Shown here in pieces: positions 16,379 to 24,101 of a stretch of DNA of 64,000 nt. Made by a program: the position numbers and the translations under genes. Below the pieces are notes generated by a model, which worked only from the letters and a program-made list of their open reading frames with translations, made no database searches and was not told where the DNA came from. How positions within the stretch are numbered: position 1 is the first letter of the stretch; each line of letters starts with the position of its first letter. Source of the stretch: Spirochaetota bacterium (lineage in GTDB: Bacteria; Spirochaetota; UBA4802; UBA5368); contig SCSX01000078.1 of the NCBI GenBank assembly GCA_004297825.1, positions 1-64,000 of the forward strand, given 5' to 3'.

Positions 16379-17347
16379 TTATCCGTAGCTTCCAAGCGAT
16401 TTCATCAGCTCCGCTTTAATGCTCGCTGCAAGTTTCTCAGGTTCGATCGCACGGGCATCGGCTCCCCAGGAGAGTACCCAGCGCTTGACTTCGAAAAGCG
16501 ATGTGGCGGGAAAAGAGAGCACGAGGCTGCCGTCCGCGCGAAGGTCCACCTCCTGTCTGGGATGCCAATTCCGTTCTTGTACGTACGGAGATTGCGAGGA
16601 GTTGAACAGAACGCGCACGGTGAAGGGCTCGCCCTCGTCCATTATGCCGAAGCTTTCCCCAAGAAAATTCCGGAAGTCGAATCCGGCGGGGATCTCGTAG
16701 CGCCCGTCGCATACGCACGCCTTTTCTATGCGGGACACCGCGAAACGCAGTACTTCGTTTCTCCGTGAGCACCACGCGATGAGGTACCATTCCCCCCGGA
16801 ACGCGGCGATGTGGTAAGGGTGCACTACGCGTTTCGTAATCTCTCCGTGCGCCTTGCGGTGTTCTATTTCGACGGCGTTCCGTCCGCGAAGGGAGACCGC
16901 AAGGGTTTCCCATACTTCGGGATCGATGGTCGCGGCGCTATCGGGAATGAACGAGTACTCCGTGCCCAGCCATGACGGGCTTACACGCGTATCGTCCGGC
17001 AAAAGGGACGCGAGTTTCCTGAATACGGCGTCCAGCGTGGAATAGAGCGGGGTCCCCGCGTATTGCGCAAGGGCCTTTTCGGCTACACATAACGCGAACA
17101 GGTCGCTTTCGCTCACATTGATGGCCGGAACCATGTAGTTTGGCTGTGTGTAATAATACCCTCGTCTCCCCTGGTCGTATTCGATTGGGGCATCCAGCAT
17201 GTCGCGCATGTACTCGATATCCCGCGCGATGGTGCGCGCGTTCGCCTCGTATTCGCGCGCCAGCGTGGCGCAATTGGGATAATCGCCCCGGCGGACGCGT
17301 GTGTCGATGAAGATCAACCTGCGGAACTGGGGTTTGAATTTTTGCAT
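16379..17347 (-). CDS. WYL-domain transcriptional regulator
   Basis: 322 residues. The N-terminus is a winged helix-turn-helix (FIDTRVRRGDYPNCATLAREYEANARTIARDIEYM), followed by the WYL domain from about residue 130: VEIEHRKAHGEITKRVVHPYHIAAFRGEWYLIAWCSRRNEVLRFAVSRI, where the domain name motif appears as EWYLIAW. A WCX-like C-terminal segment follows. WYL proteins bind ligands, often nucleic acids or nucleotides, and regulate DNA repair or CRISPR and other defence loci. It lies upstream of the cas operon and points away from it, so control of that locus is plausible but unproven. Start ATG 17347 follows GGAGG. Confidence 0.85.
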   Translation of the reverse strand: MQKFKPQFRRLIFIDTRVRRGDYPNCATLAREYEANARTIARDIEYMRDMLDAPIEYDQGRRGYYYTQPNYMVPAINVSESDLFALCVAEKALAQYAGTPLYSTLDAVFRKLASLLPDDTRVSPSWLGTEYSFIPDSAATIDPEVWETLAVSLRGRNAVEIEHRKAHGEITKRVVHPYHIAAFRGEWYLIAWCSRRNEVLRFAVSRIEKACVCDGRYEIPAGFDFRNFLGESFGIMDEGEPFTVRVLFNSSQSPYVQERNWHPRQEVDLRADGSLVLSFPATSLFEVKRWVLSWGADARAIEPEKLAASIKAELMKSLGSYG

Positions 17348-17429
17348 GGTTTCCTCCATGCACCGTTTTGTGTACGCATCAGTGGATTTCTATCAAACAA
17401 AGAAAAAATATTCAATAAATAATACTACC

Positions 17430-17448
17430 GAACGTATAAGTAACGTTC
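17430..17448. promoter_or_regulatory. Short inverted repeat between the WYL and GIY-YIG genes
   Basis: GAACGT (17430-17435) and ACGTTC (17443-17448) form a perfect 6-bp inverted repeat with a 7-base centre in an AT-rich stretch just upstream of the WYL gene. It is a possible regulator site; it also touches the left repeat of the GIY-YIG unit. Confidence 0.3.
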
Positions 17449-17541
17449 CCTTCGGCTCCGCTCAGGGAACGGGTGGGGACTGCGCTCAGGGAACGGGGGG
17501 AGGCTCCGCTCGTTGAGCGGAGTCGAAACGTGCGGAGTTCC
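17445..17541. repeat. Left palindromic repeat of the GIY-YIG unit
   Basis: Contains GTTCCCT...AGGGAAC (17445-17470), a second AGGGAACGGGG copy, and a perfect hairpin CTCCGCTC-GTT-GAGCGGAG (17504-17522) followed by TCGAAACGTGCGGAGTTCC. The same modules in the same order recur at 17849-17975 on the other side of the nuclease gene. Confidence 0.7.
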
Positions 17542-17555
17542 AAGGAGAAAAACCA

Positions 17556-17945
17556 ATGCCCTACATGTACATTCTCGAGTGCTCCGACGGAACATATTAC
17601 ACGGGCAGTACCTGGAATCTTGAAAAACGTTTGATAGAGCATAATGCAGGAATGGGCGCTCACTATACCGCGAAACGCCTCCCGGTGGTACTGGCATTTT
17701 ATGAAGAGTTTAATCGGATAGATGACGCCTTTTACCGGGAGAAACAGGTACAAGGGTGGAGTCATAAAAAGAAACACGCGCTCATTGAGCAAAACTGGGA
17801 AAGGGTGCATGAACTGGCGGAATGCAGAAATGAGACTCATTGCAGGAACGCTCCCTTCGACTCCGCTCAGGGAGCGGGTGGGGGCCCTGCTCAAGGGGTG
17901 GCTGAGAATGCCGGGCAGAGAGTGGTTAATAAGACCGTGCGTTGA
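17556..17945 (+). CDS. GIY-YIG nuclease-family protein with a repeat-derived C-terminus
   Basis: 129 residues. Residues 1-95 are a compact GIY-YIG domain of the UPF0213/YhbQ type: YMYILECSDGTYYTGSTWNLEKRLIEHN, with the usual Y-x-(10)-Y-x-G order and the Arg in EKRL, then AFYEEFNRIDDAFYREKQVQGW. Such domains cleave DNA using one metal ion. The last 30 or so residues (CRNAPFDSAQGAGGGPAQG...) are encoded by the right-hand palindromic repeat, which also supplies the TGA stop. Start ATG 17556 follows AAGGAG by eight bases. Repeats on both sides suggest a mobile or repeat-associated unit. Confidence 0.8.
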   Translation: MPYMYILECSDGTYYTGSTWNLEKRLIEHNAGMGAHYTAKRLPVVLAFYEEFNRIDDAFYREKQVQGWSHKKKHALIEQNWERVHELAECRNETHCRNAPFDSAQGAGGGPAQGVAENAGQRVVNKTVR

Positions 17946-17975
17946 GCGGAGTCGAAACGCTCGGAGTCGAAGCAA
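17849..17975. repeat. Right palindromic repeat of the GIY-YIG unit
   Basis: CGCTCCCT...AGGGAGCG (17849-17876), GGGTGGGGGCCCTGCTCAAG, and GTTGAGCGGAGTCGAAACG (17941-17959) repeat the modules of 17445-17541 in the same order. It overlaps the last 97 bases of the nuclease reading frame. Confidence 0.7.
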
Positions 17976-18202
17976 GCGGAATTAGTGGAGGATTTTCTAG
18001 CTCGAAACAAATGTGTAGGTCTCTATTTGTCGTAGGCGATATGGTACTTTGTGTGCATGTCGTCAATTGCAGGCGGGGGAAAGGCTGGAATGATGAAAGA
18101 GGAACTCCCCATGTAAGTGAAACCTGCCTATCATAACAGGAATATTTGTATTGATTATTTATATGTTTATTGAGGTACTATGATCATACAAAAAGAATCG
18201 GT

Positions 18203-20587
18203 ATGGCCGAGTCAACGAACATGAACCGCCGCGCCTCCGCCACTGTGCAGATAGCCCATGTAAAGCGTGATGACACGGGGGAATGGAAAACCCAGACGCT
18301 TAGAGAGCATTTGGATGGAGTTGCGATCCTTGCGAAGGGATTTGCGGAGGCGTTTGGGAGCGGGGACTGGGCGGAGGTTGCGGGATATTGGCATGACCTT
18401 GGGAAGTACCTTCCGGAATGGCAGAAATACATAAGAAAGGAAACGGGATATGATGAAGGTGCATATATTGAAACACAGAAAGGCCGTCCAAACCATAGCA
18501 CTGCCGGTGCGGTTCTTTCTTTCAAGCTTTTTGAGGAAGCCGTTAAAAATCGCGAGAAAGCAAAGACTATCGCGCGAATAATTGCGTATCTTGTTTCAGG
18601 TCATCATGCAGGTTTGCCTGATTGGTATCCGGATTATGCAGGAGGTGATCTTCAGAATCGTATTTTTAAGGATGGTGTTTTATGGACAGAAGAGCTAAAT
18701 AGAATAAAGACTGAACCAGATAGCAAGGAATTCATCGAAAAGAACCTTCCTGTTACGTCACCCCTCGGCATTCCCGATCCCATGACACAGAAAGAAAACT
18801 TCCATCTCTGGATTCGGATGCTCTTTTCCTGTCTTGTGGACGCGGATTATCTTGACACCGAAGCATTCATGAAGCCCGAACGGGCGGAGTTGAGAGGGAA
18901 ATATCCAACACTTAAGGAATTAAAGCATCGGTTCGATTCTTTTATGGATAATAAGAGAAGAGAAGCAAAAGACAATTCCATAAATTGGGAAAGAAATGCT
19001 ATCCTTCAGTCTTGCAGGGAAAAAGCAAAAATTGAACCAGGGATATTTTCTCTGAATGTCCCGACCGGCGGAGGGAAAACCCTTTCTTCAATGGCGTTTG
19101 CACTGGAGCATGCAATAAAACATGATAAACAACGAATTATCATGGCGATACCATACACCAGCATTATTGAACAGACCGCAAAAGTCTATAAGTACGGCAC
19201 TGATGATGAAAAAGAAATTGAAAAAGTGTTAAAAACAGGCACTTGGCTTTTTGGTGAGAATGCAGTTCTTGATCACCATAGCAATATCGATCCTGATAAA
19301 GAATCTCCCGCAAGTATCCTCTCGACGGAGAACTGGGACGCGCCTGTAATTGTAACAACCAATGTCCAACTGTTTGAATCACTATTCGCGAGCCGCCCGT
19401 CGAACTGCCGGAAGCTCCATAATATAATCAATAGCGTAATTATTTTGGATGAGGCCCAGATGCTTCCGCCGGAATACCTGAGGCCGATTCTTTCCATGCT
19501 TCAAGGGCTCGTCGATCATTTTCGTGTGACGGTAGTTTTATGCACCGCCACCCAGCCCACACTTGAAGGAAAAATCGGCTCACAAGGTACCGCGTTTCAA
19601 GGGTTGAAAAGTGTTAGGCCCATCATTGATGGGCCCGAAGTGCTTTCCAAATCATTCAAAAGAGTGACGATTGAACCGCCAACAGACTTGAATAGCCGAT
19701 CTTCTTGGGACGACGTTGCCAACGAGCTTAACCATTACCCACAGGTAATCTGTATTGTCAACAAGCGCAATGACTGCCGGGACCTCCATGCGCTTATGCC
19801 GGAAGGAACGATCCATTTATCCGCGCTTATGTGCGGGGAAGAGCGTAGTGAAATAATTTCTAATATAAAAACTGCTTTGAGGGAAGGGAAGCCGGTCAAG
19901 GTTATAAGCACTCAACTTGTGGAAGCTGGCGTGGACATTGATTTCCCCATAGTATATCGGGCCCTTGCCGGTATGGATTCCATCGCTCAGGCGGCCGGAC
20001 GCTGCAATCGTGAGGGAAAACTTAACGCTATGGGGGAGCTTGGAAAGGTTGTGGTCTTCAATCCTCCAAAATCGGCGCCCGTTGGATTGCTTCGAAAGGG
20101 GGAGGACGCCAGCAAATCTTTACTCAGACAGCGAAGTAAGATTGAGCTGAAACCGGAATTGTTCACGGAATATTTTAATGCTTTCTATGCCGCCGTGAAC
20201 GATTTCGACAAAGCGAAATTCAAAACGTGTTTGGTGGATGAATCGGAAGAATTTAAATTCCAATTCCGCACCTTTGCTCATGAATTCCGATTGATAGACG
20301 ATCAGGCACAAAAAGGAATTATTATCTGGTACGAAGGTAAAAATCATAGTAGCTTGAAATTGATTGATGAGCTGAAAAATTACGGTCCAAGTCAGAGTTT
20401 GGCTAGGAAGCTGCAAAGATTTACTGTGACTGTTCCCATCCGGATATTGCAAAAACTTGTTAATGAAGGCTTTGTGAGCGACGAAGAGTCGAATGGCTAC
20501 TTTGTGCAGACGAGTGATGGGTTGTATAAAAAAGGTCTTGGTCTAATGTACGATATCGAGACCGACTCGGCATTGAATGTCGTTTGA
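18203..20587 (+). CDS. cas3: CRISPR-associated nuclease/helicase Cas3 (type I-C)
   Basis: About 794 residues joining an N-terminal HD nuclease to an SF2 helicase. HD motifs: LREHLDGVA, GYWHDLGKYLPEWQKY, GHHAGLPDW. Helicase motifs: VPTGGGKTLSS (Walker A), LDEAQMLPPEY (motif II), CTATQPTL (III), STQLVEAGVDIDFP and QAAGRCNREGK (V and VI). It unwinds and degrades target DNA after recruitment by Cascade. The start is uncertain: ATG 18203 and ATG 18218 are candidates, TTG 18170 a third, none with a strong ribosome binding site. It overlaps cas5c by 11 bases. The region is lower in GC than the chromosome. Confidence 0.95.
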   Translation: MAESTNMNRRASATVQIAHVKRDDTGEWKTQTLREHLDGVAILAKGFAEAFGSGDWAEVAGYWHDLGKYLPEWQKYIRKETGYDEGAYIETQKGRPNHSTAGAVLSFKLFEEAVKNREKAKTIARIIAYLVSGHHAGLPDWYPDYAGGDLQNRIFKDGVLWTEELNRIKTEPDSKEFIEKNLPVTSPLGIPDPMTQKENFHLWIRMLFSCLVDADYLDTEAFMKPERAELRGKYPTLKELKHRFDSFMDNKRREAKDNSINWERNAILQSCREKAKIEPGIFSLNVPTGGGKTLSSMAFALEHAIKHDKQRIIMAIPYTSIIEQTAKVYKYGTDDEKEIEKVLKTGTWLFGENAVLDHHSNIDPDKESPASILSTENWDAPVIVTTNVQLFESLFASRPSNCRKLHNIINSVIILDEAQMLPPEYLRPILSMLQGLVDHFRVTVVLCTATQPTLEGKIGSQGTAFQGLKSVRPIIDGPEVLSKSFKRVTIEPPTDLNSRSSWDDVANELNHYPQVICIVNKRNDCRDLHALMPEGTIHLSALMCGEERSEIISNIKTALREGKPVKVISTQLVEAGVDIDFPIVYRALAGMDSIAQAAGRCNREGKLNAMGELGKVVVFNPPKSAPVGLLRKGEDASKSLLRQRSKIELKPELFTEYFNAFYAAVNDFDKAKFKTCLVDESEEFKFQFRTFAHEFRLIDDQAQKGIIIWYEGKNHSSLKLIDELKNYGPSQSLARKLQRFTVTVPIRILQKLVNEGFVSDEESNGYFVQTSDGLYKKGLGLMYDIETDSALNVV

Positions 20588-24063: not shown

Positions 24064-24101
24064 CAGACTGCTCATCGAGCGGAGTCGAGATGAGCAGTCT
24101 G
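24064..24101. terminator. Strong hairpin after cas7c, sharing a core with the GIY-YIG repeats
   Basis: CAGACTGCTCATC (24064-24076) and GATGAGCAGTCTG (24089-24101) form a perfect 13-bp stem around the loop GAGCGGAGTCGA. That loop is the same core seen in both GIY-YIG repeats. It lies 60 bases beyond the cas7c stop and may attenuate transcription into the inserted genes; there is no T-run. Confidence 0.5.

Follow-up and report, generated by a model that had tools for sequence, protein, structure and literature searches.

A GIY-YIG nuclease gene between its own hairpin repeats: one copy of a candidate REP/RAYT-like unit found in many bacterial phyla

What is a small nuclease gene doing between two arrays of the same short palindromes, one of which runs into its reading frame? 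The question is raised by a locus in the window, by which we mean the whole 64,000-nucleotide stretch of Spirochaetota DNA that was analysed. We put at roughly 0.7 the probability that the locus belongs to a widespread repeat-nuclease unit, in which a GIY-YIG nuclease comes with its own hairpin doublets and which would work in a manner similar to the REP/RAYT systems.

The product of the ORF (Table 1) is a single-domain, UPF0213-like GIY-YIG nuclease. PF01541 was the sole match in the Pfam search, the catalytic Y, Y, R, and E residues, whose roles in GIY-YIG enzymes are well established, are present, and Y5, Y15, R25, H29, and E62 are invariant across 15 relatives (alignment A1). The alignment-based AlphaFold model has a pLDDT of 92.8, and its nearest solved folds are the UPF0213 structures 1zg2 and 1ywl, followed by At-HIGLE and Slx1, which act on branched DNA. 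The conserved core of the protein comprises approximately residues 1–97. The gene is intergenic, with a WYL regulator on one side and cas3 on the other. It is one of three GIY-YIG genes in the 4.9-Mb source genome; the second (98 aa, YhbQ-like) lacks GAG...CGA hairpins, and the third, located in a 659-aa frame, is probably uvrC. A role in anti-phage defence was considered and rejected, the nuclease giving no PADLOC family at E<=0.1.

Table 1. The nuclease gene and the hairpin modules of the window, by position
Feature	Position	Strand	Details
Left array, outer hairpin	17444..17471	-	cgttccct-GAGCGGAGCCGA-agggaacg, 8-bp arms; DNA fold z -2.7
Left array, half module, degenerate copy	17476..17496	-	GACTGCGCTCAGGGAACGG; direct repeat D1
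Left array, inner module adjoining gene	17511..17530	+	cgtt-GAGCGGAGTCGA-aacg, weak 4-bp arms
GIY-YIG nuclease ORF	17556..17945	+	129 aa; PF01541 E 1.9e-15, 57 bits; alignment; AlphaFold
Right array, inner hairpin inside ORF	17849..17876	-	cgctccct-GAGCGGAGTCGA-agggagcg; codes PFDSAQG
Right array, outer hairpin	17939..17960	+	gcgtt-GAGCGGAGTCGA-aacgc; supplies TGA stop 17943-17945
Right array, degenerate extra module	17962..17983	+	CGGAGTCGAAGCAAGCGG; direct repeat D2
Solo hairpin, 13-bp arms	24064..24101	+	cagactgctcatc-GAGCGGAGTCGA-gatgagcagtctg; DNA fold z -3.8

A sequence-only reading of this DNA had placed the gene between two repeat arrays of the same module order, and this is what we found: the flanking arrays are direct repeats of each other (53 nt at 83% and 33 nt at 88%, spaced 405 and 429 bp). 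The left inner module is oriented opposite to the left outer hairpin, giving the unit the layout '- +' gene '- +', and the '+' modules adjoining the gene and the stop codon are weak, with arms of approximately 4–5 bp. That reading was also right that the right array codes for the last 30 or so residues (about 98–129, the tail of the protein) and provides the TGA stop, and that the core returns in a later hairpin, which has no nuclease gene adjoining it. Its two types of palindromic module were reduced to one, since the modules are present but the GTTCCCT...AGGGAAC arms flank the same GAG...CGA core. Allowing at most one mismatch, GAGCGGAGTCGA occurs 5 times in the window against 0.71 expected, a count reached in 0 of 100 shuffles, and the source genome holds 19 exact sites versus none for the reversed control. 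The arrays are G+C-rich, with A+T-rich stretches just outside them (17356-17430 and 18120-18170), possibly reflecting an insertion-site preference.

One might expect such an arrangement to recur if it is more than an accident of this contig. When 84,980 species were scanned with a profile, at least 580 relatives emerged, and the best 80, from about a dozen phyla, were used. With a strict definition of the hairpin (perfectly matching arms of 6 bp or more around the core GAG...CGA), 65 of the 80 loci carry one within 500 bp of the gene. Loosening the search leaves just 5 of 81 hairpin-free; homologues without repeats would have spoken against the sequence-only reading. Strict hairpins within 250 bp number 75 upstream and 76 downstream of the 80 genes (3.8–4.0/kb), and their density falls 163-fold, from 3.9/kb adjoining the gene to 0.024/kb beyond 1 kb. 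Eight control cores were found at 0–2 of the same 80 loci each. A generic hairpin search with no core requirement gave just 2.6-fold enrichment near the genes; the core is therefore needed to see the signal. Linkage of these loci with rRNA or tRNA genes was looked for and not found. Among 2.9 million viral contigs there was a single relative, which is weak and hairpin-free, and viral spread of the unit was rejected on this basis.

Within the phylum, hairpins accompany 13/20 further REP-type genes versus 0/20 canonical YhbQ-like genes (p 1.3e-5). The gene is present in 22 of the 38 phylum genomes with at least six core sites and in 18 of the 209 others (odds ratio 14.6, p 5e-11, 247 genomes), with a gene cut-off (E ~1e-14) that was picked after the table was seen. 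Close relatives (E<1e-14) are distributed patchily over these genomes, with up to 3–5 divergent copies in one genome. The sequence-only reading thus correctly tied the repeats to GIY-YIG genes, but the tie is not exclusive: approximately 11 further places in the source genome have repeats, mostly as '- +' doublets 30–150 bp apart, and no GIY-YIG gene nearby, which is what a REP-like system predicts. Three genomes (G023, G180, and G178) contain 83–115 core sites of the form TGAGCNNAGYCGAA, and no REP-type GIY-YIG gene was found in them. In such genomes the repeats may outlast the gene, another enzyme may act, the gene may have been lost or missed, or it may fall in an assembly gap.

The relatives also define the anatomy of the unit. 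The nearest upstream hairpin is '+' in 45/59 loci (45:14) and the nearest downstream hairpin is '-' in 49/65 (49:16), each with p ~5e-5; the gene therefore sits between inward-pointing hairpins (+ gene -). Common layouts are '- + gene -' and '- + gene - +', often with an inverted doublet on each side. The core is constant, and more than 100 different arm sequences surround it. Using all 235 core occurrences near genes, with arms not required, the pairing frequencies at flanking positions 2–6 are 0.94, 0.91, 0.91, 0.80, and 0.63, compared with 0.58, 0.38, 0.43, 0.58, and 0.28 for shuffled partners. All four Watson–Crick pairs occur at position 3; the arms covary strongly. The loop differs by lineage (GAGCnnAGyCGA, GAGCyTGyCGA, GAGGcnCTCGA, GAGTAG...TATCGA), and GAG and CGA, facing each other, would give tandem G.A mismatches beside it. 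A Planktothrix plasmid copy (L220 1212-1896; attct-GAGTGAAACGA-agaat) adds yet another loop to those known for this core.

The conserved protein core ends in C-x-N-x-[TS]-H in 61/81 relatives. Beyond it, the ORF enters the first downstream hairpin in 42/64, producing words such as FDSAQG, LDSARG, and SLSGVEG, and in four relatives the stop codon lies inside a hairpin. The FDSAQG-like tail thus recurs in homologues, as had been suspected from the window alone, but it is hairpin read-through and not a conserved domain; because its length and frame vary, we regard it as a tolerated by-product. In Olleya and Winogradskyella (L095 and L101), in-frame read-through past the hairpins connects the nuclease to the next gene, which by eye is GHMP-kinase-like, the whole being one ORF of ~420 aa. 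This joined ORF may be either chance or a real fusion.

Does the unit move? The best example is in the Chloroflexota assembly GWB2_54_36, where two loci encode identical core proteins and share 94% DNA identity only from hairpin to hairpin (L139 7648-8178 and L144 7846-8352), with unrelated flanks. Approximately 28 further matches in this assembly are limited to the hairpin-doublet parts, that is, they are solo doublets, which are also found in the source genome. In the multi-copy genomes of the phylum, the copies are mostly divergent and the only hairpin-bounded duplicate is a tandem one (L064). Only one clear recent duplication was found, and it could equally have arisen if the hairpin arrays recombined by homology. 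In the tree, relatives from one phylum mostly group together (13 changes against a minimum of 9), so transfer is infrequent. Inheritance of the unit is slow and largely vertical with occasional movement, as in RAYTs. Orthologous Aquimarina loci are distinguished by hairpin-bearing indels, a weak indication of mobility. An empty site was sought in a genome of the same genus as the source (G158), which had no match to the DNA flanking the window unit. As far as sequence comparison can tell, mobility is supported, and the earlier suggestion of an autonomous repeat-mobilising unit gains weight from the hairpin-to-hairpin duplication and the solo doublets.

Among known systems, the closest likeness is to REP/BIME/REPIN elements and their RAYT (TnpA_REP), where a small nuclease gene likewise lies between short imperfect palindromes of its own, with inverted doublets, gene-free solo doublets, intragenic copies, and mostly vertical inheritance. 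The window unit shows the REP/RAYT layout: a gene flanked on both sides, inverted doublets, and solo copies elsewhere. In E. coli, too, REPs depend on a conserved mismatch in the stem (PMC8266576). The enzyme, however, is of the GIY-YIG and not the HUH/Y1 type, the core is GAG...CGA and not a GTAG tag, and the copy number of the source genome is lower, at ~30 core sites. There was no match to Y1_Tnp in the window ORF, for which Pfam gives PF01541 alone, nor was a GTAG tag found on the window modules. The unit would thus work like REP/RAYT, yet it is not one, because it has neither an HUH enzyme nor GTAG.

UPF0213/COG2827 members (YazA and YhbQ; 1zg2 and 1ywl) share the single-domain fold and are the best solved relatives, but canonical members belong to housekeeping operons (trmNF-yazA-rsmI) and are without hairpins (0/20), whereas the window copy lies outside such an operon and has hairpins; the REP-type clade also differs from them in its motifs REKQ[VI]QGW and C-x-N-x-[TS]-H. 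Slx1/HIGLE have the same fold, and branched or hairpin DNA is a plausible substrate here too; the REP-type nuclease is bacterial and repeat-linked, and neither an additional domain nor a partner gene was seen. Homing endonucleases of the I-TevI type resemble it in their catalytic fold and possible self-spread; the window nuclease has no intron or intein and no separate DNA-binding domain, and the repeats flank the gene. An identity as a group I intron or intein homing enzyme was rejected, as Rfam gave nothing at E<=1 across 17000-18400 and the ORF is intergenic. Neither the core strings nor a GIY-YIG–REP link was found in the CC-licensed PMC papers searched, and the widespread nuclease-plus-repeat unit is apparently of an undescribed kind.

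A second repeat family shows the same layout. On a Shinella plasmid, a GIY-YIG gene (L219 1335-1928) sits between CGTC-tagged REP doublets (CGTCATCCTCGGGCTTGACCCGAGGATCCA), and the sister GIY-YIG clade of Pseudomonadota reaches six copies per genome. Among the top 30 Pseudomonadota relatives for which a locus was available (L265-L294), 11 have strict CGTC REPs within 350 bp and several more have imperfect ones; 29 are near the genes versus 6 far from them (p 3e-10), with control tags at 0–1 across all loci. Di Nocera et al. (2013) reported no dedicated transposase for CGTC REPs (PMC3733652). Both families consist of short palindromes in head-to-head dimers, arranged in the same way around sister GIY-YIG clades, but the window repeats lack both the CGTC tag and the CCA tail, and their conserved core is inside the arms. 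The features of the CGTC family (a CGTC/TGTC/CCTC tag, AT first pairs, a loop of 4–5 nt, and a CCA tail) do not describe the window modules. Two Sinorhizobium GIY-YIG genes (L218 1084-1841 and L242 1308-1861) lie between CTCATCCCTGTG-CTCGT-CACAGGGATGAG palindromes.

Any explanation should account for what is established, namely the linkage in several phyla, the inward orientation, the covariation, the solo doublets, and one hairpin-bounded duplication. We infer from these that the nuclease recognises its own hairpin, cuts there, and leaves copying to host repair or replication. The hairpin would take shape either in single-stranded DNA or as an extruded cruciform, and would be recognised through the core and its predicted tandem G.A mismatches beside the loop. 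After cutting, the host may copy the doublet alone to new places (non-autonomous and REPIN-like) or, alternatively, the entire doublet-gene-doublet. A hydrolytic GIY-YIG enzyme would then take the place of the HUH tyrosine transposase in a REP/RAYT-like scheme. No GIY-YIG enzyme is known to form a covalent intermediate or to join strands, and insertion would therefore have to rely on host functions.

Of the competing explanations, homing deserves the most attention, though we think it unlikely: the gene would be copied into empty repeat arrays after its nuclease cuts the gene-free allele. GIY-YIG is a homing-enzyme fold, the L139/L144 identity is confined to the unit, and solo doublets might be the recipient arrays; but insertion into one cut doublet would not leave a complete doublet on both sides, the spread of solo doublets is left unexplained, and the locus shows no intron or intein (nor any Rfam match in 17000-18400). 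Somewhat harder to credit is a gene that is merely a passenger, spread by recombination between arrays of an independent selfish or passive REP family. Repeats do occur without the gene, even in genomes seemingly lacking it, and array-to-array recombination could account for L139/L144. A passenger should not be regained so consistently, however, and here the linkage spans about a dozen phyla and holds in lineages whose arms and loops differ, hairpins thin out 163-fold beyond 1 kb from the gene, and another REP family is tied to a second GIY-YIG clade.

The chance is slimmer again that this is a structure-specific nuclease serving the host, clearing cruciforms or hairpins at repeats as policing or repair. 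Its fold neighbours, UPF0213 and the Slx1/HIGLE junction nucleases, and the inheritance clustered by phylum would suit such a role, but an enzyme of this kind has no need to sit between its own targets, and the patchy presence, several divergent copies per genome, and hairpin-bounded duplication look selfish. That the hairpins simply terminate transcription of the nuclease gene or belong to its mRNA can hardly be the answer, despite their location just up- and downstream of it: no window module was called a terminator or is followed by a T-run, hairpins are as frequent upstream as downstream (75 vs 76), the core is fixed while the arms are free, and doublets are dispersed elsewhere.

If the repeat-nuclease reading is correct, it may identify the agent behind the spread of some repeats that are common in bacteria. 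Many bacterial genomes carry scattered short hairpin repeats of this kind for which no agent is known, and the survey of 2013 did not settle the enzyme that mobilises the CGTC class (PMC3733652). A repeat-bracketed nuclease, found in about a dozen phyla and with two repeat families, is a direct candidate and offers a simple test. We give even odds to the broader proposal that a superfamily of palindromic repeats in bacteria (GAG...CGA hairpins and CGTC REPs) has small GIY-YIG nucleases as its dedicated enzymes, forming an HUH-independent second class of repeat-mobilising units that moves in many phyla by combining hydrolytic hairpin cutting with host repair. A second enzyme class would be added to the REP/RAYT concept, and a function suggested for hundreds of small genes annotated simply as 'GIY-YIG nuclease family protein'.

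Copies of the unit were also seen in or beside defence genes (L096 and L137; L220; and the window, 18170-20587), the neighbours being an HsdM-like ORF (by eye), MmeI and DISARM drmA (record annotation), and cas3 (Pfam). The cas3 neighbour here and the restriction genes in cyanobacteria may merely be places that tolerate the unit.
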